Below, in pieces: positions 49,357 to 64,000 of a DNA stretch of 64,000 nt. Origin of the DNA: Arthrobacter citreus (lineage in GTDB: Bacteria; Bacillota; Bacilli; Bacillales; Bacillaceae_G); NCBI GenBank assembly GCA_013200995.1, contig CP053688.1, positions 5,143,262 to 5,207,261 on the forward strand, written 5' to 3'. A model generated the notes under the pieces. It worked only from the letters and a program-made list of their open reading frames with translations, ran no database searches and had not been told where the DNA came from. The position numbers and the translations under genes were made by a program. The number at the start of each line of letters is the position of its first letter. Position 1 is the stretch's first letter.

Positions 49357-50037
49357 ATGGAAAATTCGAATCGAAAAATAATCAGTCGCCGAGATCGACC
49401 AGCTAAAGAGCCTTTAAGCAATGAGCTCATTGTAAGAACTGCTTATGAACTTCTTAAAGAAGAAGGCGTTGCGGGGATGAGTATGCGCAAGATTGCAAAA
49501 GCACTGGATACTGGTCCATCTTCATTGTATGTATATGTTAAAAATCTACAAGAATTAAGTTCATTAGTATTAGACTATGGCCTTGGGCAACTTGTATTGC
49601 CAGAGCCAAATGAAGAATCATGGAAGGAAAATTTATTTGGAGCGCTGAATGCTTACTTCTCGTTACTATACGAAGAACCCGGACTTGCTGAACTTTCTTT
49701 CTCCTCAATTCCGGTTGGCACAAACTTTCTTAGATTGACAGAATATATTCTTTCAACATTACAGGATGGTGGTGTCAAATCTAGATCTGCAGCATGGGGA
49801 GTAGACCTACTTTTATTATACGTTTCTTCAGTAGCATATGAACGAACTACTAAGAAAAAGCACGGTGATATGCAAATAGCTAAAATGAAAGAAGCATTCC
49901 AAAATGCTGATCCAGTTCTTTTTCCAATTCTTTTTGGTCTAGGTGAAGAAATGTTCTCAGGAGATACGAAGTCAATGGAACGTTTCCACTGGGGAATTGA
50001 AGTTTTAATCCATGGAATTCAACATTTCAATAAATAG
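49357..50037 (+). CDS. TetR-family regulator with TetR_C-like ligand domain
   Basis: 226 aa. Preceded by a basic arm (ISRRDRPAKEPLSNELIVRTAYELL), then HTH (GMSMRKIAKALDTGPSSLYVYV) and a C-terminal domain (about 85-220) of the tetracycline-repressor type. SD weak, so it may depend on translation of the monooxygenase gene. Likely represses the operon by the twin dyads at 47995-48023 and senses the monooxygenase's substrate. Confidence 0.87.
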   Translation: MENSNRKIISRRDRPAKEPLSNELIVRTAYELLKEEGVAGMSMRKIAKALDTGPSSLYVYVKNLQELSSLVLDYGLGQLVLPEPNEESWKENLFGALNAYFSLLYEEPGLAELSFSSIPVGTNFLRLTEYILSTLQDGGVKSRSAAWGVDLLLLYVSSVAYERTTKKKHGDMQIAKMKEAFQNADPVLFPILFGLGEEMFSGDTKSMERFHWGIEVLIHGIQHFNK

Positions 50038-50048
50038 AAAAGTTAAAA

Positions 50049-50085
50049 AGTAAGCAGCCAATAGATAATGGTTGCTTATTTTTTT
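50049..50085 (+). terminator. Terminator of the monooxygenase/TetR operon
   Basis: GTAAGCAGCCA / TGGTTGCTTAT stem followed by seven T. Confidence 0.85.
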
Positions 50086-50274
50086 GCACATTAAGAAAGT
50101 GTAAATTGGCAACGGTGAGGATCAGTTGACGTAGATGCCAATTTTAGGTATAAGTATAAGTGCAACTACCCCTCTGTCTTCGCCAATCGGCGAGTTTTCT
50201 TTATTTTTTTAGAATGAAACGCTATCTTAAACGTATTACTTAGTAATGTTCTAAATTTAGGTGGTGACTAAAAT

Positions 50275-51081
50275 ATGGAGATTCGAACTAGTGCGAGAGT
50301 TTCACTTTCCAAAAAAGTAGCCGAAGATGCAATGGTAGTAAACAAAATGTTAAATGTATTTGGAGTTTTTGATGGAGCAACGCCAATAAGTCCATTTAAA
50401 AATGCTGAAGGTAAGAATGGAGCATATTTAGCTTCAAATTTATTTAGAAAGTATTTCGAAAATTATTTTCAATTTAAACTGACTCTTGCTGAAGGAATTA
50501 TTCAAGCAAACAGAAGACTGATGGAAGAAATGATATTAAATAATATAGATATTACCCGCCCAGAAGAGTTGTGGACAACATGCGCTGCCGTTGTAAAAAT
50601 CGATAAACAAAAAATATCATTTGCTCAACTTGGTGATTGTATGATTATAGCAGAGTACCATAATGGCCATATAAAAACTTTAACGAAAGATACTGTAAAG
50701 GGAATCAGTAGCAGGGCGAAAGTAAAACGTGAGAATGATCGAAAGAAAGGAATAATCTTACCAGAAGAATCGTATTTCAATTCGGTTAAAAATCAACTGA
50801 TTTATAATCGAAGCATGGCTAATACGGTTAATGGTTATTCTGTTGCAAATGGAAAAGAAACAGTCAGAAGTTATATCCAATCGGGATATATAGATTCTAG
50901 GGATTTGAAGTCGATTTTATTAATCAGCGATGGATTATTTCATCCTAAGGTTGATTTGATACATGCATATAAAATAATCAATGCAATTGGGTTGGAGGAA
51001 TATTCGGTGCAATTGGAAAAGGAAGAGTTGAAAAATAAGACACATTCGGATGATAAAACGGGGATCTTTATTCGGTTTTAG
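50275..51081 (+). CDS. PP2C-family (PPM) protein phosphatase-like
   Basis: 268 aa. Metal-binding aspartates in the usual order: Asp33 in GVFDGATP, Asp121 in AQLGDCMII, Asp219 in LLISDGLF, Asp259-Asp260 in HSDDKTGIF. A short, divergent PP2C (no DGHGG), so substrate may be a phosphoprotein or other phosphoester. SD GGTGGTG. A small hairpin TCGCC/CGGCGA (50178-50193) lies upstream. Single gene with a strong terminator. Confidence 0.85.
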   Translation: MEIRTSARVSLSKKVAEDAMVVNKMLNVFGVFDGATPISPFKNAEGKNGAYLASNLFRKYFENYFQFKLTLAEGIIQANRRLMEEMILNNIDITRPEELWTTCAAVVKIDKQKISFAQLGDCMIIAEYHNGHIKTLTKDTVKGISSRAKVKRENDRKKGIILPEESYFNSVKNQLIYNRSMANTVNGYSVANGKETVRSYIQSGYIDSRDLKSILLISDGLFHPKVDLIHAYKIINAIGLEEYSVQLEKEELKNKTHSDDKTGIFIRF

Positions 51082-51199
51082 AAAATGTTCAAATATTTCA
51101 CATTTAATTTATTAATAGGGCTAAGCAAATCATGATAATATTTTAATGAAGAAATTAAAGTTAAAAACATATATTTAGTTTATATAATAACAAAGTAAA

Positions 51200-51247
51200 A
51201 AAAGGATTGAAAAGTAGAAGTGAATTCTACTATTTCGATCCTTTTTT
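51200..51247 (+). terminator. Terminator of the PP2C gene
   Basis: AAAGGATTGAAA-AGTAGAA / TTCTACT-ATTTCGATCCTTT long stem with T-run. The remaining gap to 51519 holds nothing I can name. Confidence 0.9.
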
Positions 51248-51519
51248 GTAATATAAATCAGCTCAAATTCATGGAATACTCTTAGCGAGATTTTGGAAAA
51301 ATTAATGAGAATTTTTTTGAAAATAAAAAAGTCTCCGTCGAAAATGTGACGTTAAAAAAACAAGTTAATTCAAAAACCTCTGTAACGGAGCATTTCCGAA
51401 CTATTTCACTAATAAAATGTTACAAATTGATGAACCAGTGATACAAAGGCTTTTTTTAAGATGAATATGTATTTTTTGAAGACTTATTTGAGCCTCGTTA
51501 TTGTAAGGAAGAAATGTTC

Positions 51520-52386
51520 TTAAACTTGTACTTTAGGCAGTTGGATTTCACTCCAGTTAGTTACATCGCATTGGCCCATTGCATGATCGCCCACAGCCAC
51601 CACGGTTCCGTCCGATTTAAGTCCAATTGAATGTGCGCAACCCGCTGCAATCGCGACGATATCGTGCCAGTCACTTACATTACATTGCCCATGCCCATGC
51701 TTATCGAGACCTACAGCTAGCACTGTACCATCAGATTTTAGTCCGATAGTATGATTACTACCAGCAGAGATCGCCACAATTTCACTCCAGTCACTGACAT
51801 CGCATTGGCCATGTTTATTCAAACCAATAGCAACAACCGTGCCATCTGATTTAAGCCCGACTGTATGAAGATAACCTGCATCAGCCTCTACAATGTTTTG
51901 CCAGCCTTTAACATTACATTGGCCATACCGATTATTTCCTACGTTCGTTACTGTGCCATCTGACTTAAGACCCACAGTATGCCAGTCCCCCGCTGAAATT
52001 GCCACAATATCCCGCCAGTCACTTACATTACATTGGCCATCATTATTTCGACCTACAGCCATCACCGTACCATCCGATTTAAGCCCGACAGATCGACGCC
52101 AACCCGCTGCAATCGCAACAATATCGCTCCAGTTACTTACATCGCATTGGTCATGCTTATTCCAACCTACTGCCACCACAGTTCCGTCCGATTTAAGTCC
52201 AATCGTATGAGCGTTACCAATATGACCATTACCTGCTGCAACTGCAATAATATCGTCCCAGTTGTTTACATCACATTGACCATATTTATTTTCCCCAACC
52301 GCCATGACAGTGCCATCTGATTTAAGTCCAACAGTATGACGATACCCAACAGCTATAGTATCTTTTTTCGGTGTATTAATTTGCAT
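51520..52386 (-). CDS. Seven-repeat RCC1-like beta-propeller protein
   Basis: 288 aa made almost wholly of seven repeats of about 38-43 residues, each with a core such as AAGxxHTVGLKSDGTVVAVG followed by GQCDVSDWSDIV. RCC1 propellers have seven blades of 50-60 residues; these shorter units match the bacterial RCC1-like type. No signal peptide or enzyme motif, so a binding scaffold is most likely. SD AAAGGAGG. The repeats are near-identical also in DNA (GTGCCATCTGATTTAAG on the + strand recurs), so recombination between units is likely. Confidence 0.85.
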   Translation of the reverse strand: MQINTPKKDTIAVGYRHTVGLKSDGTVMAVGENKYGQCDVNNWDDIIAVAAGNGHIGNAHTIGLKSDGTVVAVGWNKHDQCDVSNWSDIVAIAAGWRRSVGLKSDGTVMAVGRNNDGQCNVSDWRDIVAISAGDWHTVGLKSDGTVTNVGNNRYGQCNVKGWQNIVEADAGYLHTVGLKSDGTVVAIGLNKHGQCDVSDWSEIVAISAGSNHTIGLKSDGTVLAVGLDKHGHGQCNVSDWHDIVAIAAGCAHSIGLKSDGTVVAVGDHAMGQCDVTNWSEIQLPKVQV

Positions 52387-52593
52387 GTTTACCTCCTTTA
52401 TATTCGAGAAACTCTGTAATTAGTGTCAAGTATAAGTAACGGTTCAGCAGGATGTCAATTGAGATTATGATTTAATAGTCGGTTAAAAGACTAAAAAAAA
52501 TTGTTTAAACGAAGATTATATTAAAGTGGAATGGCATAGTTAATAAAAATAGAATCTTAGACTTAATTTCCATATTGATGAAAGGAGTTTAGA

Positions 52594-52715
52594 ATGTTTG
52601 AAATTACAACAACATACATTTTAAAATTAAAAGTTATGGATTAGATGTAATTCATTTGGAATTCAACCTCAGAGAGAGACGAATAACAGAATCAATAAAA
52701 AAATGTTTTAGTTGA
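52594..52715 (+). pseudogene. Frameshifted small gene at the head of the cassette array
   Basis: SD AAAGGAG and ATG 52594 open MFEITTTYILKLKVMD then stop; from the CAT at 52618 another frame continues HFKIKSYGLDVIHLEFNLRE... to TGA 52713-52715, which lies inside the first array repeat. Looks like a small cassette gene with a frameshift. The rest of 52387-52593 is empty. Confidence 0.4.
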
Positions 52716-52771
52716 AGATCACGAGTTGCTTACAGCTCTTTTTTTTATATTGAAGTAAATAGCAGATTAGT
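52703..52771 (+). repeat. Cassette-boundary repeat R1 (long form)
   Basis: TTTAGTTGAAGATC, hairpin GAGTTGC-TTA-CAGCTC with T8, then ATTGAAGTAAATAGCAG-ATTAGT. Left half-site partly missing. Confidence 0.75.
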
Positions 52772-52843
52772 AACATAAATTAAAGGACTATTTGAATGTT
52801 AAGTTTAATGTATATATTAAACTTTTGATAAGAGGTGGTTTAA

Positions 52844-53365
52844 ATGAACATAAGAAACGCAACTTTAACAGATGCAACTGGAATTGCGAAAGTCCACGTC
52901 GCAAGTTGGAAAACTACTTATAAAAACATTATGCCAGATGCTTTTTTACAGAAGTTATCTTACGACCAAAGAATTGGTTCGTGGACCAAAAATATTACTA
53001 AAGAGAGACATTATGTGTTTGTTGCAGAAAATGGTAATGGAGAAATTATAGGATTTGCAGACTGTGGAAAAAGAGAAGAGAATCAAGTCGATGATTCAGG
53101 AGACTTAACATCAATTTATCTACTTGAAGAATATCAAGGAACAGGAATTGGCAAGCAACTAATGGAACAACTTTTTAATCAATTTGAAAAGTTAGGTTTT
53201 AATAGAGTGTTTGTTGAGGTATTAGAAGATAATAAAACTCGTTTTTTTTATGAGTATTATGGTGCTGAATTATTGAAATCTGAAAAGATAACAATTGCGG
53301 GTAAGGATTTAAATCTTCTGACTTATGAATGGAATAATATTAAAAAGGTATTAGCTAAATTTTAA
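52844..53365 (+). CDS. GNAT acetyltransferase (cassette gene)
   Basis: 173 aa. GNAT fold: IRNATLTDATGIAKVHVASWKTTYKNIMPDAFL is the opening of the common Bacillus GNAT type with WxxTY; motif A LEEYQGTGIGKQLMEQLF binds acetyl-CoA. Substrate unknown. SD AGAGGTGG. First intact gene of the repeat-punctuated array; repeat R2 begins 8 bp after its stop. Confidence 0.87.
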   Translation: MNIRNATLTDATGIAKVHVASWKTTYKNIMPDAFLQKLSYDQRIGSWTKNITKERHYVFVAENGNGEIIGFADCGKREENQVDDSGDLTSIYLLEEYQGTGIGKQLMEQLFNQFEKLGFNRVFVEVLEDNKTRFFYEYYGAELLKSEKITIAGKDLNLLTYEWNNIKKVLAKF

Positions 53366-53373
53366 ACTTTGTT

Positions 53374-53454
53374 CTTATTGAACTAACTGATGAGATTCTT
53401 CAATAACGAAGGATCGTTTTTCTCATGTAGATAAATGGCAGTTTAGTTTAATAA
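53374..53454 (+). repeat. Cassette-boundary repeat R2 (long form)
   Basis: Opens CTTATTGAACTAACTGATGAG and closes AAATGGCAGTTTAGTTTAA; the two ends are imperfect reverse complements. Middle part GAAGGATCGTTTTTCTC. Confidence 0.85.
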
Positions 53455-53550
53455 AAACAGGACTATTATCTTTAATATAGAATTAATAATATTAGTTAAA
53501 ATATTTGTAAAATATTGGAATTACAATCGAAGTAAAAAGGAGAATAAATT

Positions 53551-54126
53551 ATGATTAGAAAATTATCTATTATACTTATGGCTACAATGATGCTTACAGC
53601 CTGTTCCGATTCTAGCAAAACAACAAAACAACAAAATGAGCAATCAACTGAAGCGACATCTTCTGTTACATCTAAGAAAGCAATAAAAAAAGTTTTTGAG
53701 AACCTATTTAATGGTCCAGATAAGAAGCTTATAGATTTAATGTGGAATCCTAAATATAAGACTGTTGTAAATAATAAAGAAGAAAACCCAACGTTCGATA
53801 AATATGTAGCAGAGGTATACGGACCATACATTGCAGATTCTTATCTCGATCCCTTCGTTTCAACAATTCTTAGTCAATATTCGAATTTTGCTTACGATGA
53901 TGGCTATAAGTTAAGTCTTAAGAAGATTTCAATTAAGCATAGTGATAAAGATTCAACTCGTTATACCTTCATAGCAGAGGTCGGCTATCAGAAAAATGAA
54001 GATGAAGAAAAATCTGTAAATGTAGAAGGCAAAGTCTACTTCTATTCAAAAGATAAAGGGAAAATCTCGGTAATCAAACTCATTAATGACAATGGCTTAT
54101 TGGATAACTTAAGAACGAAAAATTGA
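53551..54126 (+). CDS. Lipoprotein of unknown function (cassette gene)
   Basis: 191 aa. Signal peptide with lipobox LTAC, lipidated Cys18, then a Ser/Thr/Gln-rich linker and a soluble domain (about 45-191) ending in a beta-rich part (TRYTFIAEVGYQ, VEGKVYFYSKD). No family recognised. Expected on the outer face of the membrane. SD AAAAGGAG. Repeat R3 follows 46 bp downstream. Confidence 0.75.
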   Translation: MIRKLSIILMATMMLTACSDSSKTTKQQNEQSTEATSSVTSKKAIKKVFENLFNGPDKKLIDLMWNPKYKTVVNNKEENPTFDKYVAEVYGPYIADSYLDPFVSTILSQYSNFAYDDGYKLSLKKISIKHSDKDSTRYTFIAEVGYQKNEDEEKSVNVEGKVYFYSKDKGKISVIKLINDNGLLDNLRTKN

Positions 54127-54172
54127 ATATTTTATCTCAATAAAAAAGAACTACCATTAGTAATTCATGTTG

Positions 54173-54198
54173 TTCAACTAACTGATGCGTTAGTTGAA
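54173..54198 (+). repeat. Cassette-boundary repeat R3 (short form, perfect)
   Basis: TTCAACTAAC-TGATGC-GTTAGTTGAA: perfect 10-bp arms around a 6-bp centre. This is the clearest minimal unit of the family. Confidence 0.9.
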
Positions 54199-54241
54199 GA
54201 CCTAATTTCATATGGTAACAATTTAGAATAGGAGAGTCGGA

Positions 54242-54505
54242 ATGAAATATACTTGTCCTTGCTGTGGTTATAAAATTCTTGATGAAGAGCCTCCGGGAAC
54301 CTATGATATTTGTAGTATTTGTTTTTGGGAAGATGATCCAGTTCAATTTAAAGATCCTGATTTTGAAGGTGGAGCAAATATTCCTTCTTTAAGACAAGCG
54401 CAAATAAACTTTATTGAATTTGGTGCTTGCGAAGAAAGATGTATTGAATTTGTCAGAAAACCAAATGAAAGAGATAAAAAAGACACTAATTGGAAGCTTT
54501 TATAA
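54242..54505 (+). CDS. CPCC-type cysteine-rich protein (cassette gene)
   Basis: 87 aa. KYTCPCCGYKILDEEPPGTYDIC-SICFWEDDPVQ is the CPCC family signature (two CxxC-like pairs, presumably a zinc knuckle). Function of the family unknown; it is frequent among small accessory genes of Gram-positives. SD TAGGAGAG. Repeat R4 starts 9 bp after the stop. Confidence 0.85.
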   Translation: MKYTCPCCGYKILDEEPPGTYDICSICFWEDDPVQFKDPDFEGGANIPSLRQAQINFIEFGACEERCIEFVRKPNERDKKDTNWKLL

Positions 54506-54514
54506 TTTATTGTC

Positions 54515-54605
54515 CTTATGTAACTAACGCACTGTTTAGTTGAAAATCACGAGTTGCTTGCAGCTCGTTTTTTTATTCAAGTAAATGGCAGTTTAGTCGA
54601 ATAAG
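54515..54605 (+). repeat. Cassette-boundary repeat R4 (long form)
   Basis: CTTATGTAACTAACGCAC-TGTTTAGTTGAA, terminator hairpin CGAGTTGC/GCAGCTCG with T7, then ATTCAAGTAAATGGCAG-TTTAGTCGAATAAG. Confidence 0.88.
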
Positions 54606-54668
54606 AAATTAACTAAACAGCTTTTTCTTGTATTCTTAAGGAAATGTTGAACAAAAGGAGGGCGTTGA

Positions 54669-55235
54669 GTGAAGCTGTATACTTTTCAAAAACCAGCTTG
54701 GTGGGTTGCTTGTCGTCAACGTAGTTATTACGTAGCAGATTCGTCGTTCATATCTGATGAATTGATGGAATCTCCCTATAAGTGGATGCTCGAACAATAC
54801 AAGAAACGCATCCGTCATACGAGTGCACCTGCACTGTTATGGGTTTGGGAAGAAATTCCTGATGGGTACCGTGGCGGTGGGACAGATTGGGACATAGAAG
54901 AAGGTTATAAAGAAAACTATTTGTTTGTCTTCCAGCATAGCGAAAAGGACGTGCTGTGGAGTTGTTTTGACGCTTGGCATGTTCCACTAAATGAAGGCAG
55001 ACTAACATCTGCGGATGAAGAACCGTACGAAGACACCCTCCCTAAACGATATGGCTGGGAACGAGTTTTTGATTTTGACTGGCTAAAAAAGTATGAGTAT
55101 AGTGATATAACAACGAAGCAAGGTGTCATTGACGGCTTTACTGAGGACGAACTTCTTTCGGTCTATCGCTTTAACGAAGCAACACATTTCTGGGAGCTAC
55201 TTTATGGTGAAGCCGTAAAACTCGATTGGGCTTAA
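54669..55235 (+). CDS. DUF3841 family protein (cassette gene)
   Basis: 188 aa, GTG start 6 nt after AAAGGAGGG. Trp/Tyr-rich; LYTFQKPAWW and the PYKWMLEQYKKR, WVWEEIPDGYRGGG segments match DUF3841 as I know it. No export signal, no enzyme motif. Its base composition is richer in G+C than neighbours, consistent with independent origin. Repeat R5 begins 12 bp downstream. Confidence 0.78.
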   Translation: MKLYTFQKPAWWVACRQRSYYVADSSFISDELMESPYKWMLEQYKKRIRHTSAPALLWVWEEIPDGYRGGGTDWDIEEGYKENYLFVFQHSEKDVLWSCFDAWHVPLNEGRLTSADEEPYEDTLPKRYGWERVFDFDWLKKYEYSDITTKQGVIDGFTEDELLSVYRFNEATHFWELLYGEAVKLDWA

Positions 55236-55247
55236 ATAATTATGACC

Positions 55248-55281
55248 CTTAGGCAACTAAATAATGTTTTAGTTCAATTAG
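55248..55281 (+). repeat. Cassette-boundary repeat R5 (short form)
   Basis: CTTAGGCAACTAAATAATG-TTTTAGTTCAATTAG. Almost the same as the reconstructed site interrupted by the IS110 element (R7). Confidence 0.82.
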
Positions 55282-55320
55282 AGATTGTTACTCTAAAAGG
55301 TGTAAAAGGAGATATATATT

Positions 55321-55788
55321 TTGAAAAGAGGTATTAGTTTTGAGATACCAAATCAGTATGGACAATTTTTAGATGATATTTTAAAACCAGTGAATATTAA
55401 GGATTTTAACTGGTTTATTATAGGTGAAGAGTCTTATTTAGTGGTGGATGGAGACTTGGATAAACCTCTTTTTCCAGAATACATCCAAGTTATAAACGGT
55501 CCAGAACTTGATGATAAACTAAAAAAAAATGAATACTATTTAATATTTGCAGATTTAAAAGCTTTTCCCGAAAATAAAGATTCAATTGAAATAAGAACAT
55601 ACGAAGAATTTTTAAGTAGCGATTGCCAATTATGTTTATTAATAACAGATTGCATATATACAGATATTTATTGTAAAGAATTAGAGTTAATAGAAAAATT
55701 GTATACAAACGCACTACAAAATAATTACGAAAACCTATCCTATATCACAGATACGAATGATAGTAGAACAGGGCTCAGTTGTTGGTAG
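55321..55788 (+). CDS. DUF2691 family protein, copy A (cassette gene)
   Basis: 155 aa, TTG start after AAAAGGAGA. Opening KRGISFEIPNQYGQFLDDIL and closing DSRTGLSCW match DUF2691. Function unknown; cytoplasmic. A near-identical copy (about ten residue differences) is at 58105-58572, and similarity extends from repeat to repeat, including 60 bp upstream and 30 bp downstream. Confidence 0.85.
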   Translation: MKRGISFEIPNQYGQFLDDILKPVNIKDFNWFIIGEESYLVVDGDLDKPLFPEYIQVINGPELDDKLKKNEYYLIFADLKAFPENKDSIEIRTYEEFLSSDCQLCLLITDCIYTDIYCKELELIEKLYTNALQNNYENLSYITDTNDSRTGLSCW

Positions 55789-55798
55789 ATTTATATTT

Positions 55799-55890
55799 CT
55801 TATGCAACTAACTGATGCTTATGTTGAATAAGATCATAGTCGCAAATGCGAAATTCCTTATTCAACATAATGGCAGGTTAGTGGAAGAAG
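55799..55890 (+). repeat. Cassette-boundary repeat R6 (long form)
   Basis: CTTATGCAACTAACTGATGC then TTATGTTGAATAAG, inner hairpin around TAGTCGCAAATGCGA, then CTTATTCAACATAATGGCAG-GTTAGTGGAAGAAG. Identity with R10 ends precisely after CTGATGC. Confidence 0.88.
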
Positions 55891-55948
55891 GATTTTAATA
55901 GGTTTACGAGAAAAACTTAATATCAAATCAAGTATGATGGAGGAAGAT

Positions 55949-56398
55949 ATGGAAGAGTTAGAAGTAAAACAAATAAAAAATTTGTTATATGTTGATTTAA
56001 CATTTTTAGTGAAGGAAAGCAAAGATGAGGGTTTTCGTATGGTAGAAAGATTAGTAAATGATTATAAAAATGGTACTAATACTTTTAACAATTTAGGCGA
56101 GGTTTTATTTGGTGTTTTTAATGAAAAAGGTGAATTAGTTGCCGTTGGTGGATTAAATAAAGACCCTTTTTCGAATAAACAATATATCGGTAGACTTAGA
56201 AGGTTTTATGTTAGTAAAGAGTATAGGAGAAACGGTATTGGAAGCCTGTTGTTAAAAAGGATAATTAACGAAGCAAAAAAGTATTATAAAGTTTTAGTGC
56301 TTCATACTAATACAGAACAAGCTGATAAATTTTATACTTCCCTTGGATTTTCAAAAGAAAATAGATTTCTTAATTCTACACATTGTTTAAATATGTAA
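55949..56398 (+). CDS. GNAT acetyltransferase (cassette gene)
   Basis: About 149 aa from ATG 55949 (GGAGGAA just upstream; ATG 55934 and 55937 overlap the SD). Core acetyl-CoA motif FYVSKEYRRNGIGSLLLKRII and the LHTNTEQADKFYTSLGF end are typical GNAT. Substrate unknown. Repeat R7 begins 12 bp after the stop and is split by the IS110 element. Confidence 0.85.
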   Translation: MEELEVKQIKNLLYVDLTFLVKESKDEGFRMVERLVNDYKNGTNTFNNLGEVLFGVFNEKGELVAVGGLNKDPFSNKQYIGRLRRFYVSKEYRRNGIGSLLLKRIINEAKKYYKVLVLHTNTEQADKFYTSLGFSKENRFLNSTHCLNM

Positions 56399-56410
56399 AA
56401 ACAGTGAAGA

Positions 56411-56425
56411 GCTATACAACTAAAC
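56411..56425 (+). repeat. Cassette-boundary repeat R7, left half (split by IS110)
   Basis: CTATACAACTAA-AC. Joined to 58044-58072 (AC-TAATGCTTTAGTTCAATTAG) at the shared AC it gives a complete short-form repeat closely matching R5. Confidence 0.75.
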
Positions 56426-56556
56426 CAGCTAATAGTTTGTCAATAATTTTCAATAAAAAAATTTAGTGACCCATGTTATACTATTTTTGACATGCCAAAT
56501 AATCTTCCACTTATTCAAAAATTGGAAGATTATGGTAGTTGAAGTTAGTTCAGATT

Positions 56557-57792
56557 TTAAGCTAGATCTTGGAAAGTCGTTTTGCTTTTTAACAGGGCAT
56601 AAATCCAATGTAATAGTTTGTTTACACAAGCAATAACTGTTACTCTAAATGGTTTTCCTTCTTCACGCTTTTTATCATAAAATTGTCGCATTCGCTTATT
56701 TCGTGGGATGATTTCGTCTGTTGTCTTACTCTTACGATTATCACGAATTGCACACCGAACAGCCATAAATAACGCATGTCTCAATCGACTAGAACCACGT
56801 TTTGTAATACGGTTTCTACTGGCTGTGAATTTACCAGATTCAAAGACACTCGGGTCAACACCAGTGAAAGCCACAAGTTTTTTAGGATTATCAAACCGAT
56901 CAATTTCACCAATTTCAGAGATAATCGTTGCCGCGATTTTTTTTCCGATACCTGGAATCGATTGGATGATAGTATATTCTTCAATTTCTTTTACGAGGAC
57001 ATCTATCTCTGCTTTTAAATTGGATAGATGTTCTTTGTATTGAAGAACCATTTTAATATGCATCTCAAGCGAAATAATTAGGCTTCTATAAAGATTTACT
57101 TGAAACGGATTTTTTTCAGCCGCAGTAATTAAAAGCTTAGCTCTTTCGTTTGCCCATTGTTTAGAACGACTAGTACATAAAGATGCGATTCGTTTAGCTA
57201 GTTGATCTTCACCTGCTTGTAACACAGCTTCAGATGAAGGAAACTCCAGTAAAGTTAAGAGTGAAACATTAGAATACAAATCTCCAAATACACCTCGATA
57301 TTCAGGAAACACTTGATCTAGAATCGCTAAAAAATGTAGTTTTGTCTGAGAACTAATACCTGTTAAATGATCGTGCTGTCTGGTTAAATTTCGCAGGTTT
57401 AGTAACTGTGCACCACGTTTTTTATGTGGCTCTAACTCTTCTTTGTAATACAGCTCGCAGAGGTGGTACGCATCGATGACATCAGTCTTAACCTTTCTTA
57501 AACTCGAACTTTTAGCTCGATAAGAGATTAATGGATTAATAACGATGTAAATATAATTTAAGCTATCTAAGAACTGCATAACTGGAGAATGGTAATGTCC
57601 TGTCGATTCCATTATTAATACTGGTTTTGAATTGGCTTTTTCTTCGATACTCTGTAAGAATTGATGTAGCTGCTTAAACCCTTCAACTGTATGTGAAATT
57701 TTAAAACTTTTTTTAAAAGGAGTCTTTCTATCTAAAAAAGCTTGTATTTGGCTTTCTCCTTTTGCGACATCCAGACCAACTACTGGATTCAT
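56557..57792 (-). CDS. IS110-family DEDD recombinase (transposase)
   Basis: 411 aa, full length. RuvC-like N-domain with Asp8 (GLDVAKG), Glu62 (MESTGHY), Asp104 and Asp107 (VKTDVIDAYH). C-terminal Transposase_20 domain with IQSIPGIGKKIAATII and the serine region KRGSSRLRHALF (Ser334/Ser335). All catalytic residues present and no frameshift, so the element may be active. In this family the protein works with a bridge RNA made from the non-coding end; here that end is upstream of the gene, as in the IS110/IS621 subgroup. SD TAGGAGGAG. Confidence 0.93.
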   Translation of the reverse strand: MNPVVGLDVAKGESQIQAFLDRKTPFKKSFKISHTVEGFKQLHQFLQSIEEKANSKPVLIMESTGHYHSPVMQFLDSLNYIYIVINPLISYRAKSSSLRKVKTDVIDAYHLCELYYKEELEPHKKRGAQLLNLRNLTRQHDHLTGISSQTKLHFLAILDQVFPEYRGVFGDLYSNVSLLTLLEFPSSEAVLQAGEDQLAKRIASLCTSRSKQWANERAKLLITAAEKNPFQVNLYRSLIISLEMHIKMVLQYKEHLSNLKAEIDVLVKEIEEYTIIQSIPGIGKKIAATIISEIGEIDRFDNPKKLVAFTGVDPSVFESGKFTASRNRITKRGSSRLRHALFMAVRCAIRDNRKSKTTDEIIPRNKRMRQFYDKKREEGKPFRVTVIACVNKLLHWIYALLKSKTTFQDLA

Positions 57793-57844
57793 AAACTATC
57801 TCCTCCTAAAACTATTAAATTTATCGGTTCCCCTAATACTCCCT

Positions 57845-57985
57845 TATAGTGTCATAGGTTCGCTTGTTATGCGGGATCTATGTCCCAACCAGCCAAAATC
57901 ATGTTTCTATAAGTAGGGGGTGAACTGTTTAGTTGACGGGGTCTAAGCCCCACTAATGCTTCGTTCTGCCCCGACTACTTAATCA
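57845..57985 (-). ncRNA. Predicted IS110 bridge RNA (target- and donor-binding loops)
   Basis: Minus strand, read leftwards. Target loop (57966-57922): stem GAAC/GTTC inside an outer TAAGTAG/CTACTTA stem, a GGGG-CTTAGA-CCCC terminal hairpin, loop arms GAAGCATTAGT and GTCAACTAAACA. They match the right flank (ACTAATGCTT, 58044-58053) and the left flank (CAACTAAAC, 56417-56425). Donor loop (57894-57858): hairpin GGGA-CATAGA-TCCC, arms GGCTGGTT and AGCGAACC, matching the element's joined ends ...CGA-AC-CAGC. All four arms agree on core AC (+ strand). Exact RNA ends unknown. Confidence 0.72.
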
Positions 57986-58043
57986 TAAGACCATATAAAA
58001 AATGGTCAACCAGTAAATAAAACTGGATGACCTTATAATACGA

Positions 58044-58072
58044 ACTAATGCTTTAGTTCAATTAGAGATTGT
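58044..58072 (+). repeat. Cassette-boundary repeat R7, right half
   Basis: ACTAATGCTTTAGTTC-AATTAG; together with 56411-56425 it restores the repeat preceding DUF2691 copy B. Confidence 0.75.
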
Positions 58073-58104
58073 TACTCTAAAAGGTGTAAAAGGAGATATA
58101 CATT

Positions 58105-58572
58105 TTGAAAAGAGGTATTAGTTTTGAGATTCCAAATCAGTATGGACAATTTTTAGCTGATATTTTAAAACCAGTGATTATTAAGGATTTTAATTGGTTT
58201 ATTATAGGTGAAGAGTCTTATTTAGTGGTGGATGAAAACTTGGATAAACCTCTTTTTCCAGAAAACATCCAAGTTATAAACGGTTCAGAACTTGATGATA
58301 AACTAAAAAATAATGAGTACTATTTAATATTTGCAGATTTAAAAGCCTTTCCCGAAAATAAAGATTCAGTTGAAATAAGAACATACGAAGAATTTTTAAG
58401 TAGCGATTGCCAATTATGTTTATTAATAACAGATTGCACATATACAGATATTTATTGTAAAGACTTAGAGTTAATAGAAAAATTGTATACAAACGCACTA
58501 CAGTATAATTACGAAAACCTATCCTATATCACAGATTCGAATGATAGTAGAACAGGACTTAGTTGTTGGTAG
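58105..58572 (+). CDS. DUF2691 family protein, copy B (cassette gene)
   Basis: 155 aa, TTG start after AAAAGGAGA. Differs from copy A at about ten positions only (for example LADIL for LDDIL, VIIKDF for VNIKDF). Both frames are intact. The match to copy A starts in the upstream repeat and stops within the downstream repeat, i.e. the whole cassette was duplicated. Confidence 0.85.
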   Translation: MKRGISFEIPNQYGQFLADILKPVIIKDFNWFIIGEESYLVVDENLDKPLFPENIQVINGSELDDKLKNNEYYLIFADLKAFPENKDSVEIRTYEEFLSSDCQLCLLITDCTYTDIYCKDLELIEKLYTNALQYNYENLSYITDSNDSRTGLSCW

Positions 58573-58582
58573 GTTTATATTT

Positions 58583-58616
58583 CTTATGCAACTAACTGAT
58601 GCAATAGTTAAACAAG
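58583..58616 (+). repeat. Cassette-boundary repeat R10 (short form)
   Basis: CTTATGCAACTAACTGATGC-AATAGTTAAACAAG. Same as R6 up to CTGATGC, then different. Confidence 0.82.
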
Positions 58617-58639
58617 ACTTTTAAGAATTAAAGGAGAAG

Positions 58640-58798
58640 ATGAATAAAAACGAATTTCTACAATTCATTGAAGAGTGGGGAGAATACTTTAAATGGATAT
58701 CAGTTTCACTTAGAAATGAATATGAAAAAATATTGATAGATTTGAAAAGTATTTATAGTTCAAATGAAATAAATTACGTGAAATTCTTAGGAGATTAA
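58640..58798 (+). CDS. 52-aa protein (cassette gene)
   Basis: ATG right after AAGGAGA; MNKNEFLQFIEEWGEYFKWI... ends VKFLGD. Acidic, helical, no signal peptide; no family recognised. It fills the interval between repeats R10 and R11 (19 bp before R11), which supports it as a real cassette gene. May be the truncated start of a longer immunity-like protein. Confidence 0.55.
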   Translation: MNKNEFLQFIEEWGEYFKWISVSLRNEYEKILIDLKSIYSSNEINYVKFLGD

Positions 58799-58816
58799 TA
58801 AATATGTTTAACCATT

Positions 58817-58908
58817 CTAATGCAACTACGCAGTGCAATAGTTGAACAACAAGATCGGCTGTTTAGTCGATTTTTTTATTCAACAAAATGGCAGTTTGGT
58901 TCAATAAG
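58817..58908 (+). repeat. Cassette-boundary repeat R11 (long form)
   Basis: CTAATGCAACTACGCAG-TGCAATAGTTGAACAA, terminator GATCGGCTG-TTTAGTCGAT with T7, ATTCAACAAAATGGCAG-TTTGGTTCAATAAG. Confidence 0.87.
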
Positions 58909-58971
58909 GAATGATATACTATTAGTAATATTTTTAAACATCAAGAGGAAGTAGAACGGAGCATATGTTTA

Positions 58972-59289
58972 ATGGAAAAAAGAACTACTACTAATAAATA
59001 TCTACCTTATTTCTTTTCTTATTTACTTGTTTATCCCTGTAGCTTTCCTTTAGTTGTTATTATAGGATTAGCAACAGCCAGTCTAAGCGAAAGTAAAGCA
59101 AATGTGGTTTCTTATATTGTTTGCGCTTTAGTAACAATTGTAGGCGCTATAATATTGAATTTATATTTTAAGAATTTCATGGGATTGAAGAAAAATAATA
59201 AACAAACTTGGTCTATATTTATAACTCATTTAATTTTGATTCCTTTAACAGTTTTTATATATTACTGGGTTACATGGAACTTTTTTTAA
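58972..59289 (+). CDS. Small membrane protein (cassette gene)
   Basis: 105 aa, ATG with GGAG 9 nt upstream. Three hydrophobic segments (about 12-35, 43-65, 80-103). No family recognised. Repeat R12 starts 23 bp after the stop. Confidence 0.65.
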   Translation: MEKRTTTNKYLPYFFSYLLVYPCSFPLVVIIGLATASLSESKANVVSYIVCALVTIVGAIILNLYFKNFMGLKKNNKQTWSIFITHLILIPLTVFIYYWVTWNFF

Positions 59290-59311
59290 TTAATGAAAAT
59301 AGCGTATGGGT

Positions 59312-59377
59312 GATTGAACTAAATGATGCTTTAGTTATACAACGTAAAACGCGATCGGCGATTTTGTCGGTCTTTTT
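59312..59377 (+). repeat. Cassette-boundary repeat R12, left part (split by intron)
   Basis: GATTGAACTAAATGATGC-TTTAGTTATACAAC, then the terminator stem GATCGGCG-ATTT-TGTCGGTC and T5. The right part resumes at 61546. Confidence 0.82.
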
Positions 59378-61545
59378 GTGCGACGGGCAGTCGCATAGGG
59401 TGCTGACCTAGTCAGCACCCTTCAATCATTTTAACTAGACAGAGACGACACTTCGGTGTAACGACTGGACGAAGGATAAAATTATGAATTCCAGATGGTG
59501 AAAATCCATACTCGAGGAGACTGACCTAGCTCGAGAAGTCTAATCTAGGGCATTATCGCGAGGTATTGTCTGAAGGAGATGCGGTAAATCGAGAGACCCG
59601 TAGACGAAAAGATAGACCCTAATGCAAGAAGTGTGAAGCACGGCGGCGGGATAAGTTGGTGACTCTGCGAAAAGTGAGGAAACCCACTAAAACGGCATTT
59701 TCTTTAGAAGTCAGAGCGAGAAAATGTGGCTTATAACGTGATGGTGCAGGGTATGTCTTGAAGGAAAATGCGATGACCCCGTGAGGTCTCCACCTTACCG
59801 AACAGGCAGGGTTCTAATCTATAAGGGCAATCCGAAGTGATGAAGAACGGGTGGAGAAGTCAGACGTTCTCATAGTACGGAAGTAGTTCGATGACCATAA
59901 CATTGAATGAACGGAAGGGGAACGACCTATGGCTCCAAGTCATGGACGAGATGGAATGTCAACAATCAAGTTACTGAGGTAAAACCGTTTGAATGAACAT
60001 CAAGGAAAGGCATGGAATATGTAATGAATCAAGAGTGGAAATTTAAATTACACAGTGTTTATGGTCAATTATTATTCGACCGTAAATTAACAAAAAGCTT
60101 CGAACAAGTAAAAGCGAATAAAGGTACAGGTGGAATTGACGGAGAATCAATCGAAAGTTATGAATCTAACTTGAATGGAAATATTTTGTCATTACTTGAA
60201 AAGTTAAGAACGAAAACCTACAAAGCACAACCAGTCAAAAGAGTATACATACCTAAGAAAAATGGAAAGAAACGACCATTGGGAATTCCGACAATTCAAG
60301 ACCGTATTGTTCAACAGAGTTTAGTAAATGTGTTACAACCAAAATTTGAGGATCTACTGTTTCATAATTGGTCAGTAGGATATCGACCAAATCGAGGAGT
60401 TCAAAGAGCCCTTCAAATAATCTTATGGAATATAGAACAGGGATATAATCATATATACGATTGTGATATAAAAGGCTTCTTCGATAATATTCCACATAAG
60501 AATCTAATCGGAATATTAAAGAAATACGTCTCGGACCGAACGGTCCTTAGTCTCATAGAACAATGGTTAAAGGTTGGACACATGGAAGAAGGAAAACTGA
60601 TTCATTCTGACTACGGGACTCCTCAAGGTGGAGTAATTTCACCATTACTAGCAAATGTCTATCTTAATGAATTGGATTGGGAATGGGATTTGAATGGTAT
60701 TCGCTTCGTTCGTTACGCAGATGATTTTCTTTTATTTGCGAAATCAAAAGAATTAATCGAAAAAGCAGCGTCCTTAACTAAAGAAAAGTTGAAAGAGTTA
60801 GGATTAGAGATTTCAAAAGAGAAAACTAGAGTAGTCAACTTTGAGAAGGACGATTTCGATTTCCTAGGTTTTACATTTCATCATTGGAGACCGAATAAGA
60901 AAGTTAATAAACCTATATTTCATGTGACACCTAAGGAAGAATCAATCAAAGACTTTCGATTGAAAATTAAAGAAAAGACTCGAAAGACTTTAACTCTGAG
61001 CAAAGAAGAATGGGTTAGTCGTGTGAATCCAATTATACGTGGAAAAGTCAATTATTATGTGACAATCATCAAAGCGATTAAGGCTAATGAAGAACTAGGT
61101 CAGACAAGTCATTGTATTACCAGATGGACGAGAAATCGACTTCGAAATCTAGATGGATACATAAGAAGGCGACTGCGAGTAGCCTTTATTCATAAACATC
61201 CAACCCAAAGAAAAGGGGATAAAATGAATAGTTTATGGAATAACTCATTCTTTCTAAAGACTAACCTAATCCCATCTTATTGGCTTTACTTAAATAAAGC
61301 TTTCGGCTACACAAAAGAACAATATTTAAATGACATGAAGAAAACAACTAAACGCAACATACATACAAGGATTAAAAGAGAAAGAGAAAAGGGAAAAGAA
61401 TATTACAACCCTATTCGTCTCCAAAAGATGCAAAATGCCTGGAATGCATCCTCTTGATAAACACTACAACATATGGGTAAGCCGTATGCCTTAATTGGGC
61501 AAGTACGGTTTGATAAGGGGGAAGTCTCGTGAGAGATTTCCCTAC
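59378..61545 (+). mobile_element. Group II intron within repeat R12
   Basis: 2168 bp. The 5' end GTGCGAC follows the GUGYG rule. A ~630-nt structured 5' region precedes the reverse-transcriptase gene. Domain V is visible at 61479-61511 (AGCCGTATGCC ... GGGCAAGTACGGTTT, with the AGC triad), domain VI at 61517-61545 (GGGGAAGTCTC/GAGATTTCCC), and the 3' end is CTAC (AY). It sits directly after a terminator hairpin and T-run, the preferred site of class C introns. Removing it restores a long-form repeat like R11. Class assignment is inference. Confidence 0.88.
60012..61457 (+). CDS. ltrA: Group II intron reverse transcriptase/maturase (LtrA-like)
   Basis: 481 aa. RT domain with PLGIPTIQDRIVQQ, GYRPNRG, DIKGFFDNI, TPQGGVISPLLANVYL and the catalytic YADD at 235-238 (RYADDFLLF). 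Thumb/maturase domain X about 290-400 (GFTFHHWRP..., INPIIRGKVNYY-like VNPIIRGKVNYYV). No HNH endonuclease domain, as in class C and some related introns, so mobility would rely on DNA secondary structure or replication forks. Complete and probably functional. AAGGAAAGG precedes the ATG. Confidence 0.93.
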   Translation: MEYVMNQEWKFKLHSVYGQLLFDRKLTKSFEQVKANKGTGGIDGESIESYESNLNGNILSLLEKLRTKTYKAQPVKRVYIPKKNGKKRPLGIPTIQDRIVQQSLVNVLQPKFEDLLFHNWSVGYRPNRGVQRALQIILWNIEQGYNHIYDCDIKGFFDNIPHKNLIGILKKYVSDRTVLSLIEQWLKVGHMEEGKLIHSDYGTPQGGVISPLLANVYLNELDWEWDLNGIRFVRYADDFLLFAKSKELIEKAASLTKEKLKELGLEISKEKTRVVNFEKDDFDFLGFTFHHWRPNKKVNKPIFHVTPKEESIKDFRLKIKEKTRKTLTLSKEEWVSRVNPIIRGKVNYYVTIIKAIKANEELGQTSHCITRWTRNRLRNLDGYIRRRLRVAFIHKHPTQRKGDKMNSLWNNSFFLKTNLIPSYWLYLNKAFGYTKEQYLNDMKKTTKRNIHTRIKREREKGKEYYNPIRLQKMQNAWNASS

Positions 61546-61584
61546 TTTATTTTATTGAACAAAATGCCTGTTTAGTTGCTTAAG
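61546..61584 (+). repeat. Cassette-boundary repeat R12, right part
   Basis: TTTATTTTATTGAACAAAA-TGCCTGTTTAGTTGC-TTAAG: the right arm expected after the terminator T-run. Confidence 0.8.
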
Positions 61585-61679
61585 AATTTAGAGTGTATAA
61601 TGGGATGATGCTAGAAAATTCGCTTATTAAGAAGAATATGATTTTAATTATAAATACCACAACTGTATAAGGAGGACTT

Positions 61680-62036
61680 ATGAATAAACTTAAAGAATTT
61701 TATTGGGATATTTTATATAGGTTGTTTAGGATACAGTCTAAAAATGCAGGCTGGACAACATTTGCCCCTTTGAGAATTGCCCCTGAATATAGTGTTAACT
61801 TGGAAAAAGGTCAAGTTACAGGAGAAGTAAAATATAATGAAAAGATATACTTGACTGTTATTGTAGATGTTCCTAACGAAAGTACTGTGGTTAAAGGGAG
61901 TCTTAGACGTATTCATAAACATACAAGACCATTTAAAAAACATAATTACATAGAAATTATTAAAGATAATGCGGAATATTTTATTGAAAACAAAATAGCA
62001 AATCCAAAGGAACACTATGATAAGCTATTCAACTAA
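61680..62036 (+). CDS. 118-aa protein of unknown function (cassette gene)
   Basis: ATG after AAGGAGG. Basic, beta-rich middle (YSVNLEKGQVTGEVKYNEKIYLTVIVDVP) and a helical end. No signal peptide; no family recognised. The stop codon TAA lies inside the next repeat (TTCAAC-TAA-C), so the repeat abuts the coding end with no gap. Confidence 0.65.
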   Translation: MNKLKEFYWDILYRLFRIQSKNAGWTTFAPLRIAPEYSVNLEKGQVTGEVKYNEKIYLTVIVDVPNESTVVKGSLRRIHKHTRPFKKHNYIEIIKDNAEYFIENKIANPKEHYDKLFN

Positions 62037-62073
62037 CTAATGAACTAGTTTTATAAAATGGCAACTGAAAGAA
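62025..62073 (+). repeat. Cassette-boundary repeat R13
   Basis: CTATTCAACTAACTAATG-AACTAGTTTTATAA-AATGGCAACTG; it overlaps the stop codon of the preceding gene and lacks an internal terminator. Confidence 0.7.
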
Positions 62074-62147
62074 TCAGATTCCATTTTTAATTTTGATATA
62101 ATATTAATAGGTTGGTAAATACATATTGACATCTTGGGGGAATTAAT

Positions 62148-62486
62148 TTGGAAAAAGCTATTAGAAAAGGTCTCATTTATGGTATTTTGTTTGGGATAGC
62201 AATTGCAATTTTATTTATTAAACATTATGAAATTAACACATCATTTCAAGGAAATGAGATTATTTATTTAAACAAATTTGATTACTTAATATTAATTTTA
62301 AAGCGTGGCATTGTTGGTTCATTTTTTGGAGCCTTTCTAGCTTTTATTATTTTTAAACTAAATGATTCATTAAAACTGAGTAAAAAAATGAAATTTGCTG
62401 CCATTATATTTGGCATATGCGTAGTTGGACCAGTTATACAATATTTAGTTTCTTTAAGACTCAATGAATTATCGCTGTTTAACTAG
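62148..62486 (+). CDS. Small membrane protein (cassette gene)
   Basis: 112 aa, TTG start with GGGGGAA upstream. Three hydrophobic segments (about 7-25, 55-70, 84-104). No family recognised. Ends ...SLFN with its stop (AAC-TAG) in a degenerate repeat, R14, like the preceding gene. Confidence 0.62.
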   Translation: MEKAIRKGLIYGILFGIAIAILFIKHYEINTSFQGNEIIYLNKFDYLILILKRGIVGSFFGAFLAFIIFKLNDSLKLSKKMKFAAIIFGICVVGPVIQYLVSLRLNELSLFN

Positions 62487-62502
62487 AGCGTTCGTAAGTT
62501 AG
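62476..62502 (+). repeat. Cassette-boundary repeat R14 (degenerate)
   Basis: TGTTTAACTAGAGCG-TTCGTAAGTTAGT: arms AACTA / TTAGT with a GCGTTCG centre. Confidence 0.45.
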
Positions 62503-62536
62503 TGATTAATCTTTAACCTGATTGAAGGGACTTAAA

Positions 62537-62854
62537 ATGAAAAAGAAAATTAGTGTAAGTTGGTTAATAGTATTATTATTTATTTTTTATTTAATATCGA
62601 CTTTTGTAGGTGGTTCAACTTTTGAGGATTTTTTAGCTAGGAATAAAAATATTCATTCTGATCGAACTAACCATACAGAAGGATGGACTGGTCCGAATAA
62701 CGAAAAACTTGATTGGGACTCAAGCGAAGAGAATTATAGAATTATTTATGTAAGATATGCTTATACCTTTATTAAACCAAATAAAAAAATAATGGAAGTA
62801 TCTGCAATAAAAATTTTTGGAATTTGGATTGATACCACTAAAAGTAAACAGTAA
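62537..62854 (+). CDS. Small exported or membrane-anchored protein (cassette gene)
   Basis: About 105 aa from ATG 62537 (AAGGGA upstream, preferred over TTG 62522). N-terminal KKK then a hydrophobic span (8-26) acts as signal or anchor; the outer part has EGWTGPNNEKLDWDSSEENYRIIYVRY. No family recognised. Repeat R15 starts 29 bp after the stop. Confidence 0.62.
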   Translation: MKKKISVSWLIVLLFIFYLISTFVGGSTFEDFLARNKNIHSDRTNHTEGWTGPNNEKLDWDSSEENYRIIYVRYAYTFIKPNKKIMEVSAIKIFGIWIDTTKSKQ

Positions 62855-62883
62855 GAAAAAGAGATTTAAAATGAAATAAATTA

Positions 62884-62917
62884 CTTATTGAACTAACGCA
62901 TGTCATTGTTCAATAAG
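62884..62917 (+). repeat. Cassette-boundary repeat R15 (last of the array)
   Basis: CTTATTGAAC-TAACGCATGTCATT-GTTCAATAAG: perfect 10-bp outer arms. Confidence 0.85.
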
Positions 62918-62924
62918 ACTTCCT

Positions 62925-62951
62925 AAAGTTGTCTAATTAGACAACTTTTTT
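62925..62951 (+). terminator. Terminator closing the cassette array
   Basis: AAAGTTGTCT-AATT-AGACAACTTT perfect stem with T-run. Confidence 0.9.
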
Positions 62952-62971
62952 AGTCGAAACATCAGCATTTA

Positions 62972-63000
62972 AAAAGAGGCAACTAAAAATTGCCTCTTTT
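62972..63000. terminator. Bidirectional hairpin between the array and the minus-strand gene
   Basis: AAAAGAGGCAA / TTGCCTCTTTT 11-bp stem, T residues on both sides; serves the convergent gene at 63057-63908. Confidence 0.8.
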
Positions 63001-63056
63001 CAAATGTGCACAAAAAACCATTTTCAAGTAATTCCCAAGAACCGGTAACTAAACAA

Positions 63057-63908
63057 CTAATTAATTCTTGAAAGCAAAGGATCAATATTCACTTTCCATG
63101 GAGAAAGAGGTGACGTTCTCACCAATATAAAAGTAATATTGGTTCTAACCCGACCTTTATTTTTAATAAAGAGATTAAGTTCAACTGGTATTTCAGATGC
63201 AAGAGAGTATGTTTCTGATTCCCTTGTTTGTGGTGAAGTCCACTGTATCGCATCTATTTTTTCAATTTTCTTAAGTTCTTCTTTGAAATCTTTTTGATCA
63301 CTTATGGCAATTTTTTTTATCAAACCTTTATCACCGTTTTTTATCGTAAATAATATTACATTTAGCATTTGGGAAGGTGAGAGGTTATTCATATATTCAT
63401 CAAACCTCCCAGCAGCTTTAAGAACCATCAGATGATGAGATAAGTCTGATTTTCCTGTCTTATGTGTTGTGCTTCCCATAAAATGAATGCAAAAGTGACC
63501 AGGGAAACCGTTAGGAAGAGTACCTGCTCCATGTGGCATTCCGTGCATGGATGCAGGGATTAGGTTGTCATGAGCTAAAATTAATACAGCCCTCCTGCGC
63601 CAACTCCATTCCCCACCGTATATTTCCTTCATTATCCTAGTATCTTCCCTTGTTAATGGCTGGACATCTGCATGTCTACTACCAGCTCTTCGTTGTACAT
63701 TAAAGCTCTTTCCACTTTCCACATCGATTACAGTGAACAATGAGTATTTTGGGATTATTTTGTTGACAGCTTCCCAATCTTGAATTTCTATATGGAAGCT
63801 AATTGGGCAATGGACTGTTTCGTCTGTCGTAGCGATCGTAGCGTATGTAAGTTCTGATGAGAAAAATAATGTAAGTGACAAAATGACAATAAAAAAAGCT
63901 TTTTTCAC
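63057..63908 (-). CDS. Secreted protein with a conserved GHFCIHF-motif domain
   Basis: 283 aa, GTG start (weak SD). Signal peptide 1-23. Conserved-looking core SRHADVQPL, IYGGEWSWRRRAVLIL, ASMHGMPHGAG, GHFCIHFMGSTTHKTGKSDLSHHLMV at about 75-185. I recall this motif set from secreted proteins of Bacillus and Paenibacillus, often with wall-binding or copper amine oxidase-like domains. A Cys flanked by several His suggests a catalytic or metal site, but no reaction is established. It is the first minus-strand chromosomal gene beyond the array. Confidence 0.65.
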   Translation of the reverse strand: MKKAFFIVILSLTLFFSSELTYATIATTDETVHCPISFHIEIQDWEAVNKIIPKYSLFTVIDVESGKSFNVQRRAGSRHADVQPLTREDTRIMKEIYGGEWSWRRRAVLILAHDNLIPASMHGMPHGAGTLPNGFPGHFCIHFMGSTTHKTGKSDLSHHLMVLKAAGRFDEYMNNLSPSQMLNVILFTIKNGDKGLIKKIAISDQKDFKEELKKIEKIDAIQWTSPQTRESETYSLASEIPVELNLFIKNKGRVRTNITFILVRTSPLSPWKVNIDPLLSRIN

Positions 63909-64000
63909 AGCTATAAGTCAACTCCGATGTCTAATAATTGAATACATCTATTTTGTCTAATTTTTTAGATAAAATAGCTATAAAAAAATTGGGAATATAA

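Follow-up and report, generated by a model that had tools for sequence, protein, structure and literature searches.

A probable gene-cassette system with an Xer-like recombinase in Gottfriedia and other Bacillales

The window analyzed here is a 64,000-nt stretch of DNA deposited as Arthrobacter citreus (CP053688.1, positions 5,143,262 to 5,207,261), which forms the end of contig C1 (5.2 Mb) of a genome assigned to Gottfriedia by named loci; a second contig, C2, comprises 250 kb. Near its right end, small genes that all face the same way alternate with a shared repeat. This array is genuine, and the genome has several of the kind. We consider it very likely that the arrays belong to a site-specific gene-cassette system with an Xer-like tyrosine recombinase, core sites of two kinds (P1 and P2) and an attI-like site. 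An earlier note on this DNA, made from the letters alone, had proposed a cassette array that uses an unrelated or diverged site, and this proposal is supported by unit boundaries that fall at sites, by reuse of units and by different content beside a conserved gene.

Two-core sites and the ends of cassettes

Alignment of 37 long sites, 82-108 bp in length, revealed a constant order of P1, a terminator hairpin (several kinds) and P2. P1 reads CTTATTCAACTAAC-TGATGC-ATTAGTTGAACAAC and P2 reads TTATTCAACAAAATGGCAGTTTAGTTGAATAAG; each consists of two inverted arms flanking a 6-7 bp spacer, and tyrosine-recombinase core sites usually have such inverted arms around a short spacer. Short sites consist of P1 alone. 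Sites in Peribacillus have the same P1-terminator-P2 order, with the spacers GGGTGC and GGGGCAG. The minimal repeat of the earlier note is a real site (54169-54202), now recognized as P1 only; its long form of about 90 bp is also real, but is P1, terminator hairpin and P2 rather than a single long imperfect palindrome. The attC sites of integrons recombine as folded single strands. For the sites studied here, the hypothesis of folding found no support in covariation of the arms within and between neighboring sites (22 tests with z between -1.7 and 2.0, a single one reaching p = 0.03) or in RNAalifold on the aligned sites, which gave no pairs and no structure. DNA folding of the 37 sites was mixed, with outer arms pairing in 14/37 top strands and 15/37 bottom strands and a local P1 hairpin in 17/37. 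Similarly, neither base frequencies nor TATAAT-like matches behind 87 P2 matches placed a built-in promoter at any single fixed position.

A search of the whole genome with the right-half pattern (up to 3 mismatches) yielded 71 matches versus 0 for the reversed pattern; therefore the repeat is not due to chance. Several matches are single copies, and most fall in co-oriented clusters of up to ~65 kb. The large arrays occupy C1 757-803 kb (+) and C2 119-185 kb (-), and smaller ones lie near C1 622, 2,986, 3,288 and 4,960 kb, in addition to the window array. Across seven arrays, 136 open reading frames (ORFs) of at least 80 aa run along the site orientation and 35 against it. For co-oriented ORFs with a site further downstream, the median distance from stop codon to site was 31 bp, and it was at most 60 bp in 80 of 133. 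Of 129 cassette ORFs, 118 were scanned; 73 of them matched Pfam families, among these 8 GNAT and 5 NUDIX matches. Comparison of these 118 proteins with PADLOC showed no clear defense theme (four matched PDC-S07, and 11 other models matched once each).

Within-genome blast searches detected the same gene units in different arrays and beside different neighbors. To judge unit ends, 18 of 65 matches were kept after removal of insertion elements, introns, repeat-coded genes and protease genes. Among their 72 ends, 44 were located within 25 bp of a site boundary (shuffled mean 6.1%, maximum 16.7%, 500 shuffles), and three or four ends were near a site boundary in 10 of the 18 unit pairs. The aligned junctions break directly after TGATGC in P1 or ATGGCAG in P2; for the two DUF2691 units of the window, identity stops at CTTATGCAACTAACTGATGC and the arms beyond differ. 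On the evidence of these copies, the cassettes behave as mobile units with site-defined ends.

Comparison between species, with one genome per species as the basis for judging gain and loss, pointed in the same direction. The site occurs in all 13 Gottfriedia genomes searched, at 10-88 copies (control 0). Beside the gene that flanks the window array on the right, nine relatives have 40 site matches in the window orientation and 8 in the opposite one; cassette content differs between these species, and blastn found no cassette gene in common with the window. The left-flank gene (window 50256-51081) is also conserved but lies elsewhere in relatives (in G003 at 1.35 Mb, versus 2.58 Mb for the right flank), and therefore only the right flank anchors the array position. 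Two Peribacillus genomes, G198 and G307, share individual units, with up to 98.7% identity, that occupy different arrays in a different order, and units adjacent in one genome are ~30 kb apart in the other. Contig C2 of G198 carries a recombinase at coordinates that match those of one in Peribacillus simplex NZ_CP011009.1. Of the 27 cross-genome matches, 19 were kept after repeats were dropped; 7 of their 38 ends fell at a site in both copies, compared with a null mean of 0.02 and maximum of 1 in 1,000 shuffles. The annotated genes that surround a recombinase remnant hardly differ between two Peribacillus frigoritolerans plasmids, which were uninformative on exchange. From these comparisons we infer recombination at the sites.

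The array recombinase and its attI-like site

The earlier note had reported that the window contains no integrase, which was confirmed, and had suggested a search for a tyrosine recombinase near the largest cluster. The genome encodes 12 tyrosine recombinases, XerC and XerD among them, and one candidate resides in another array, array B on C2, where its gene is antisense to the cassettes and flanked by P1 and P2, with P2 upstream. Its start is probably at position 2827 of locus L036, giving a protein of 279 aa, the length of most relatives among the matches listed. In seven Gottfriedia genomes the gene shares an upstream leader in which an invariant TTTCGTCAATAAT block is followed by a P2-like half site that has no P1; the half site is clear in five genomes and diverged in two. 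This P2-only site directly upstream of the recombinase is an attI-like arrangement. P1 and P2 delimit the recombinase block in G000 and G001, and only one side was recognized in G009 and G012. More broadly, at 20 of 29 loci a P2 lies no more than 170 bp from an end of the recombinase gene, upstream and antisense at 15 of these, although the null for this count was too lenient, comparing a single random window and strand with four tries. Orthologues were found in 11 of 13 Gottfriedia genomes, four of them open; G011, with 10 sites, has none. In G006, one of two open copies (L108, on contig C13) has Asp at the conserved tyrosine position. The Peribacillus gene (G198 C1 1777260-1778111; G307 C1 4875468-4876319) runs in the same direction as the cassettes, with a site 42-43 bp past its stop codon. 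In some loci (L125, L160, L167 and L169, and array B sites C2 184918 and 155059) a shared GTGAAG...CACTTAAACTAA leader replaces P1 before a half site; such half sites are possibly another attI or an element end.

The kinship of the recombinase was assessed by profile, tree and predicted fold. Its best profile is the XerA-like NF040815 (213.8 bits, cut-off 220), whereas the integron integrase profile TIGR02249 gave 93.1 bits versus a cut-off of 265, and none of the 21 matches to it in the genome exceeded that cut-off. The IntI-specific insertion was not found: ~6 residues span profile positions 166-213, a region that host XerC and XerD also skip. An additional IntI-specific domain is named as defining for integrons in part of the text of PMC9668308. 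In the tree, the recombinase family forms a clade with 100/100 support, separate from host XerC and XerD, to which the array recombinase is ~31% identical; the other long branches are unsafe. A first structural model, from 5 sequences, was poor (predicted local distance difference test score, pLDDT, 55), and a second, from 58 sequences, reached pLDDT 80.5 with a predicted template-modelling (TM) score of 0.56. The nearest fold to the second model was that of XerA and the next that of an archaeal Xer; XerD ranked sixth and integron IntI4 ninth, each at TM ~0.5. By these comparisons the array recombinase is Xer-like and not an IntI.

In a search for relatives of the recombinase at E 1e-30, 1,150 proteins matched, and the best 120 listed are all at least 65% identical; at E 1e-80, 71 of 397 genomes, representing 37 of the 135 genera of the order, had a member of the family. 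Of 398 samples taken across the phylum, four had it, and three of the four belong to this order. A phage origin was rejected, as a search of 50,697 phage records at E 1e-50 gave no match to the recombinase; 6 of 72,556 plasmid records matched at E 1e-60. Relatives outside the genus are 48-68% identical and often lie inside co-oriented arrays. At 19 recombinase loci of other genera, 63 sites are antisense to the recombinase and one runs the other way; at two further loci (L172 and L125) all 11 sites are on the recombinase strand. The reversed control gave 1 overall. Across the 397 genomes, several of which have more than 100 sites, the median site count is 21 with the recombinase versus 7.5 without it. 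Outside Gottfriedia, at least 20 sites were found in 31 of 63 recombinase-positive genomes versus 37 of 322 negative ones (p = 7e-10; reversed control p = 0.12). The link between recombinase and site number is clear, although not strict.

The array in the window

The repeats and right-facing small genes described in the earlier note were found where it had placed them, with the count of genes revised from about 13 to 12 (between ~52,700 and 62,920, inserted elements excluded, one ORF of only 52 aa). A Pfam scan of nine window proteins named two GNAT acetyltransferases, CPCC, DUF3841 and DUF2691; of the others, one had a weak match below its cut-off and three had no match. The second DUF2691 unit is a 96% identical copy of the first. 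Arrays A, B and D in the table are other arrays of the genome.

Features of the window array and its right flank
Feature	Positions	Strand	Basis
Degenerate site at left array edge (P1 right-arm-like stretch, terminator, weak P2)	52705..52779	+	sequence; P2 match with 6 mismatches at 52757
Cassette gene, GNAT acetyltransferase	52844..53365	+	Pfam; 85% identical unit in array A
Long site (P1-terminator-P2)	53374..53455	+	site alignment
Cassette gene, lipoprotein-like, no Pfam family	53551..54126	+	ORF, Pfam scan
Short site (P1 only)	54169..54202	+	sequence
Cassette gene, Cys-rich CPCC protein (PF14206)	54242..54505	+	Pfam
Long site	54515..54605	+	site alignment
Cassette gene, DUF3841 (PF12952)	54669..55235	+	Pfam; 83% identical unit in array B
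Short site	55248..55281	+	sequence
Cassette gene, DUF2691 (PF10903), first copy; unit 55256-55818 recurs at 58040-58602	55321..55788	+	Pfam, blast
Long site	55799..55890	+	site alignment
Cassette gene, GNAT acetyltransferase	55934..56398	+	Pfam; 96% identical unit in array D
Left arm of P1 site split by IS110-family element	56411..56423	+	sequence, blast
IS110-family element inside P1 (transposase 56557-57792; ends approximate)	56424..58044	-	ORF, blast
Right part of P1 site split by IS110-family element	58045..58065	+	sequence, blast
Cassette gene, DUF2691, second copy	58105..58572	+	ORF, blast
Short site	58583..58616	+	sequence
Small ORF, 52 aa, possible cassette gene	58640..58798	+	ORF
Long site	58817..58908	+	site alignment
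Cassette gene, small membrane protein, no family above its cut-off	58972..59289	+	ORF, Pfam scan
P1 and terminator of long site split by group II intron	59310..59377	+	sequence
Group II intron behind terminator (reverse transcriptase 60012-61457; ends approximate); 99.9-100% identical copies in array A	59378..61545	+	ORF, blast, Rfam
P2 of long site split by group II intron	61562..61584	+	pattern match
Cassette gene, no Pfam family	61680..62036	+	ORF, Pfam scan
Short site	62024..62057	+	sequence
Cassette gene, small membrane protein, no Pfam family	62148..62486	+	ORF, Pfam scan
Cassette gene	62522..62854	+	ORF
Short site, last of array	62884..62917	+	sequence
Conserved right-flank gene, outside array; in 11/12 other Gottfriedia genomes, 81-87% identity	63057..63908	-	cross-genome search

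Two sites of the window are interrupted, the first by an IS110-family element and the second by a group II intron (~59378-61545), which matched RF02001 and RF00029; nothing else matched in an Rfam scan of window positions 50000-64000. IS110-family elements lie inside P1 in the window (56424-58044) and at several positions in arrays A and B, and an IS110-like end adjoins P2 in Peribacillus, so that these elements apparently target cassette sites. The group II introns within sites, in the window (59378-61545) and in arrays A and B, are of two kinds, one inserted after the T-run of the terminator and the other immediately behind the TGATGC of P1. A dispersed intergenic repeat of ~125 bp (window ~50079-50210), with more than 20 copies in this genome and many in other Gottfriedia, is unrelated to the cassette sites and has no Rfam match at the gathering threshold.

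Mechanism, alternatives and relation to integrons

From sequence we infer a model in which a cassette is a small gene, or in some cases more than one, enclosed by P1 and P2 core recombination sites. The Xer-like tyrosine recombinase encoded inside the arrays would catalyze recombination of core with core and excise cassettes, probably as circles, which would be re-inserted at the attI-like site or at other sites. The terminator between P1 and P2 would probably insulate each cassette from its upstream neighbor.

Several observations weigh against this model. Array B contains a second, different tyrosine recombinase (388 aa; L054, C2 ~124.4-125.6 kb), likewise antisense to the cassettes. The array recombinase is broken or fragmentary in 7 of the 11 Gottfriedia genomes that have it, and G005 carries 52 sites yet has no orthologue. 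No site was found at 3 of the 19 loci of other genera. Outside Gottfriedia, the 37 of 322 negative genomes with at least 20 sites are joined by 21 of 63 positive genomes with fewer than 10. Furthermore, only 13 of 344 cross-species Gottfriedia matches have at least three of four ends near sites, and nine of these are the recombinase block itself.

Cassettes might instead be moved by the host XerC/XerD pair through dif-like cores, as in the Acinetobacter dif modules, with the array recombinase as a passenger. The cores do resemble Xer-type sites, both host enzymes are present, and genomes without the array recombinase, such as G005, can carry many sites. We nevertheless regard this as improbable: a dedicated recombinase is encoded in the arrays and neighbors an attI-like site at 20 of 29 loci, sites co-occur with it, and array sites run in one direction, whereas the dif modules, which use host XerC/XerD, are described in parts of the published accounts as C and D modules. 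Still less probable is the other suggestion of the earlier note, that the repeats are a family of repetitive extragenic palindromes or miniature inverted-repeat transposable elements inserting behind gene 3′ ends, so that arrays are mere insertion hot spots. The repeats are numerous and mostly lie shortly past stop codons, with some single copies away from clusters, but homology between copies spans whole gene units and stops in site spacers, co-orientation holds across tens of kb, content differs beside the conserved gene, and the repeats are linked to a recombinase. Ordinary homologous recombination between repeats, for which the sites would offer shared short homologies of 34-108 bp, is similarly a very unlikely source of the shuffling, since junctions are located within the 6-7 bp spacer though similarity runs on into the next arm, and the cores have many mismatches.

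Like integrons, chromosomal superintegrons included, the proposed cassette system has a tyrosine recombinase gene next to an attI-like site, and this gene runs antisense to small-gene cassettes that form a co-oriented array. Also shared are a structured site behind each cassette, variable content at a fixed place and frequent decay of the recombinase. GNAT-rich cargo, and group II introns and IS110-type elements that have inserted into sites, are further parallels. In contrast, the array recombinase is not IntI and is missing the IntI-specific stretch; the Bacillales site has two cores with a terminator between them and exchange points in both P1 and P2; no covariation indicates a folded site; and the Peribacillus recombinase is co-directional with the cassettes, with the site 3′ of the gene. 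The system thus resembles Gram-negative integrons in its working but is made of other parts; on the tests run it is not a member of the integron family, and we do not file it as an integron because neither of two defining features tested, an IntI above cut-off and the IntI-specific domain, was found. With the Acinetobacter dif modules (pdif, XerC/XerD) it has in common that genes on plasmids and chromosomes are reshuffled between short Xer-type cores, whereas the Bacillales arrays have one orientation, a dedicated recombinase and an attI-like site. Neighboring sites of dif modules alternate in inverted orientation; this was not seen along the arrays, whose sites share one orientation. The Xer recombinases XerA, XerC and XerD provide the best profile, sequence and fold matches, but the array recombinase stands in its own clade, is patchy in distribution and is linked to arrays. 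On balance we favor, with some reserve, the view that Bacillales have an independently evolved counterpart of integrons, with an Xer-derived recombinase, a two-core site with an insulating terminator and exchange via either core, probably on double-stranded DNA.

No description of such arrays in Bacillales was found in the open-access papers searched (preprints excluded, few subscription papers), and three core sequences used as queries occur in none of them. A survey with the standard finder lists, in part of its text, one complete Firmicutes integron (Limnochorda pilosa) and a few integrase-less clusters (PMC9024848), as opposed to the 71 of 397 sampled genomes, all from one Bacillota order, that carry the array-linked recombinase family. 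If our reading is true, the capture of cassettes evolved on at least two occasions, and there is a large pool of unannotated mobile genes in circulation among Gram-positive soil bacteria. The system would open this Gram-positive cassette gene pool to study, would offer a natural comparison for the origin of cassette systems from Xer enzymes, and would supply sites and a small recombinase for testing double- versus single-strand cassette exchange.

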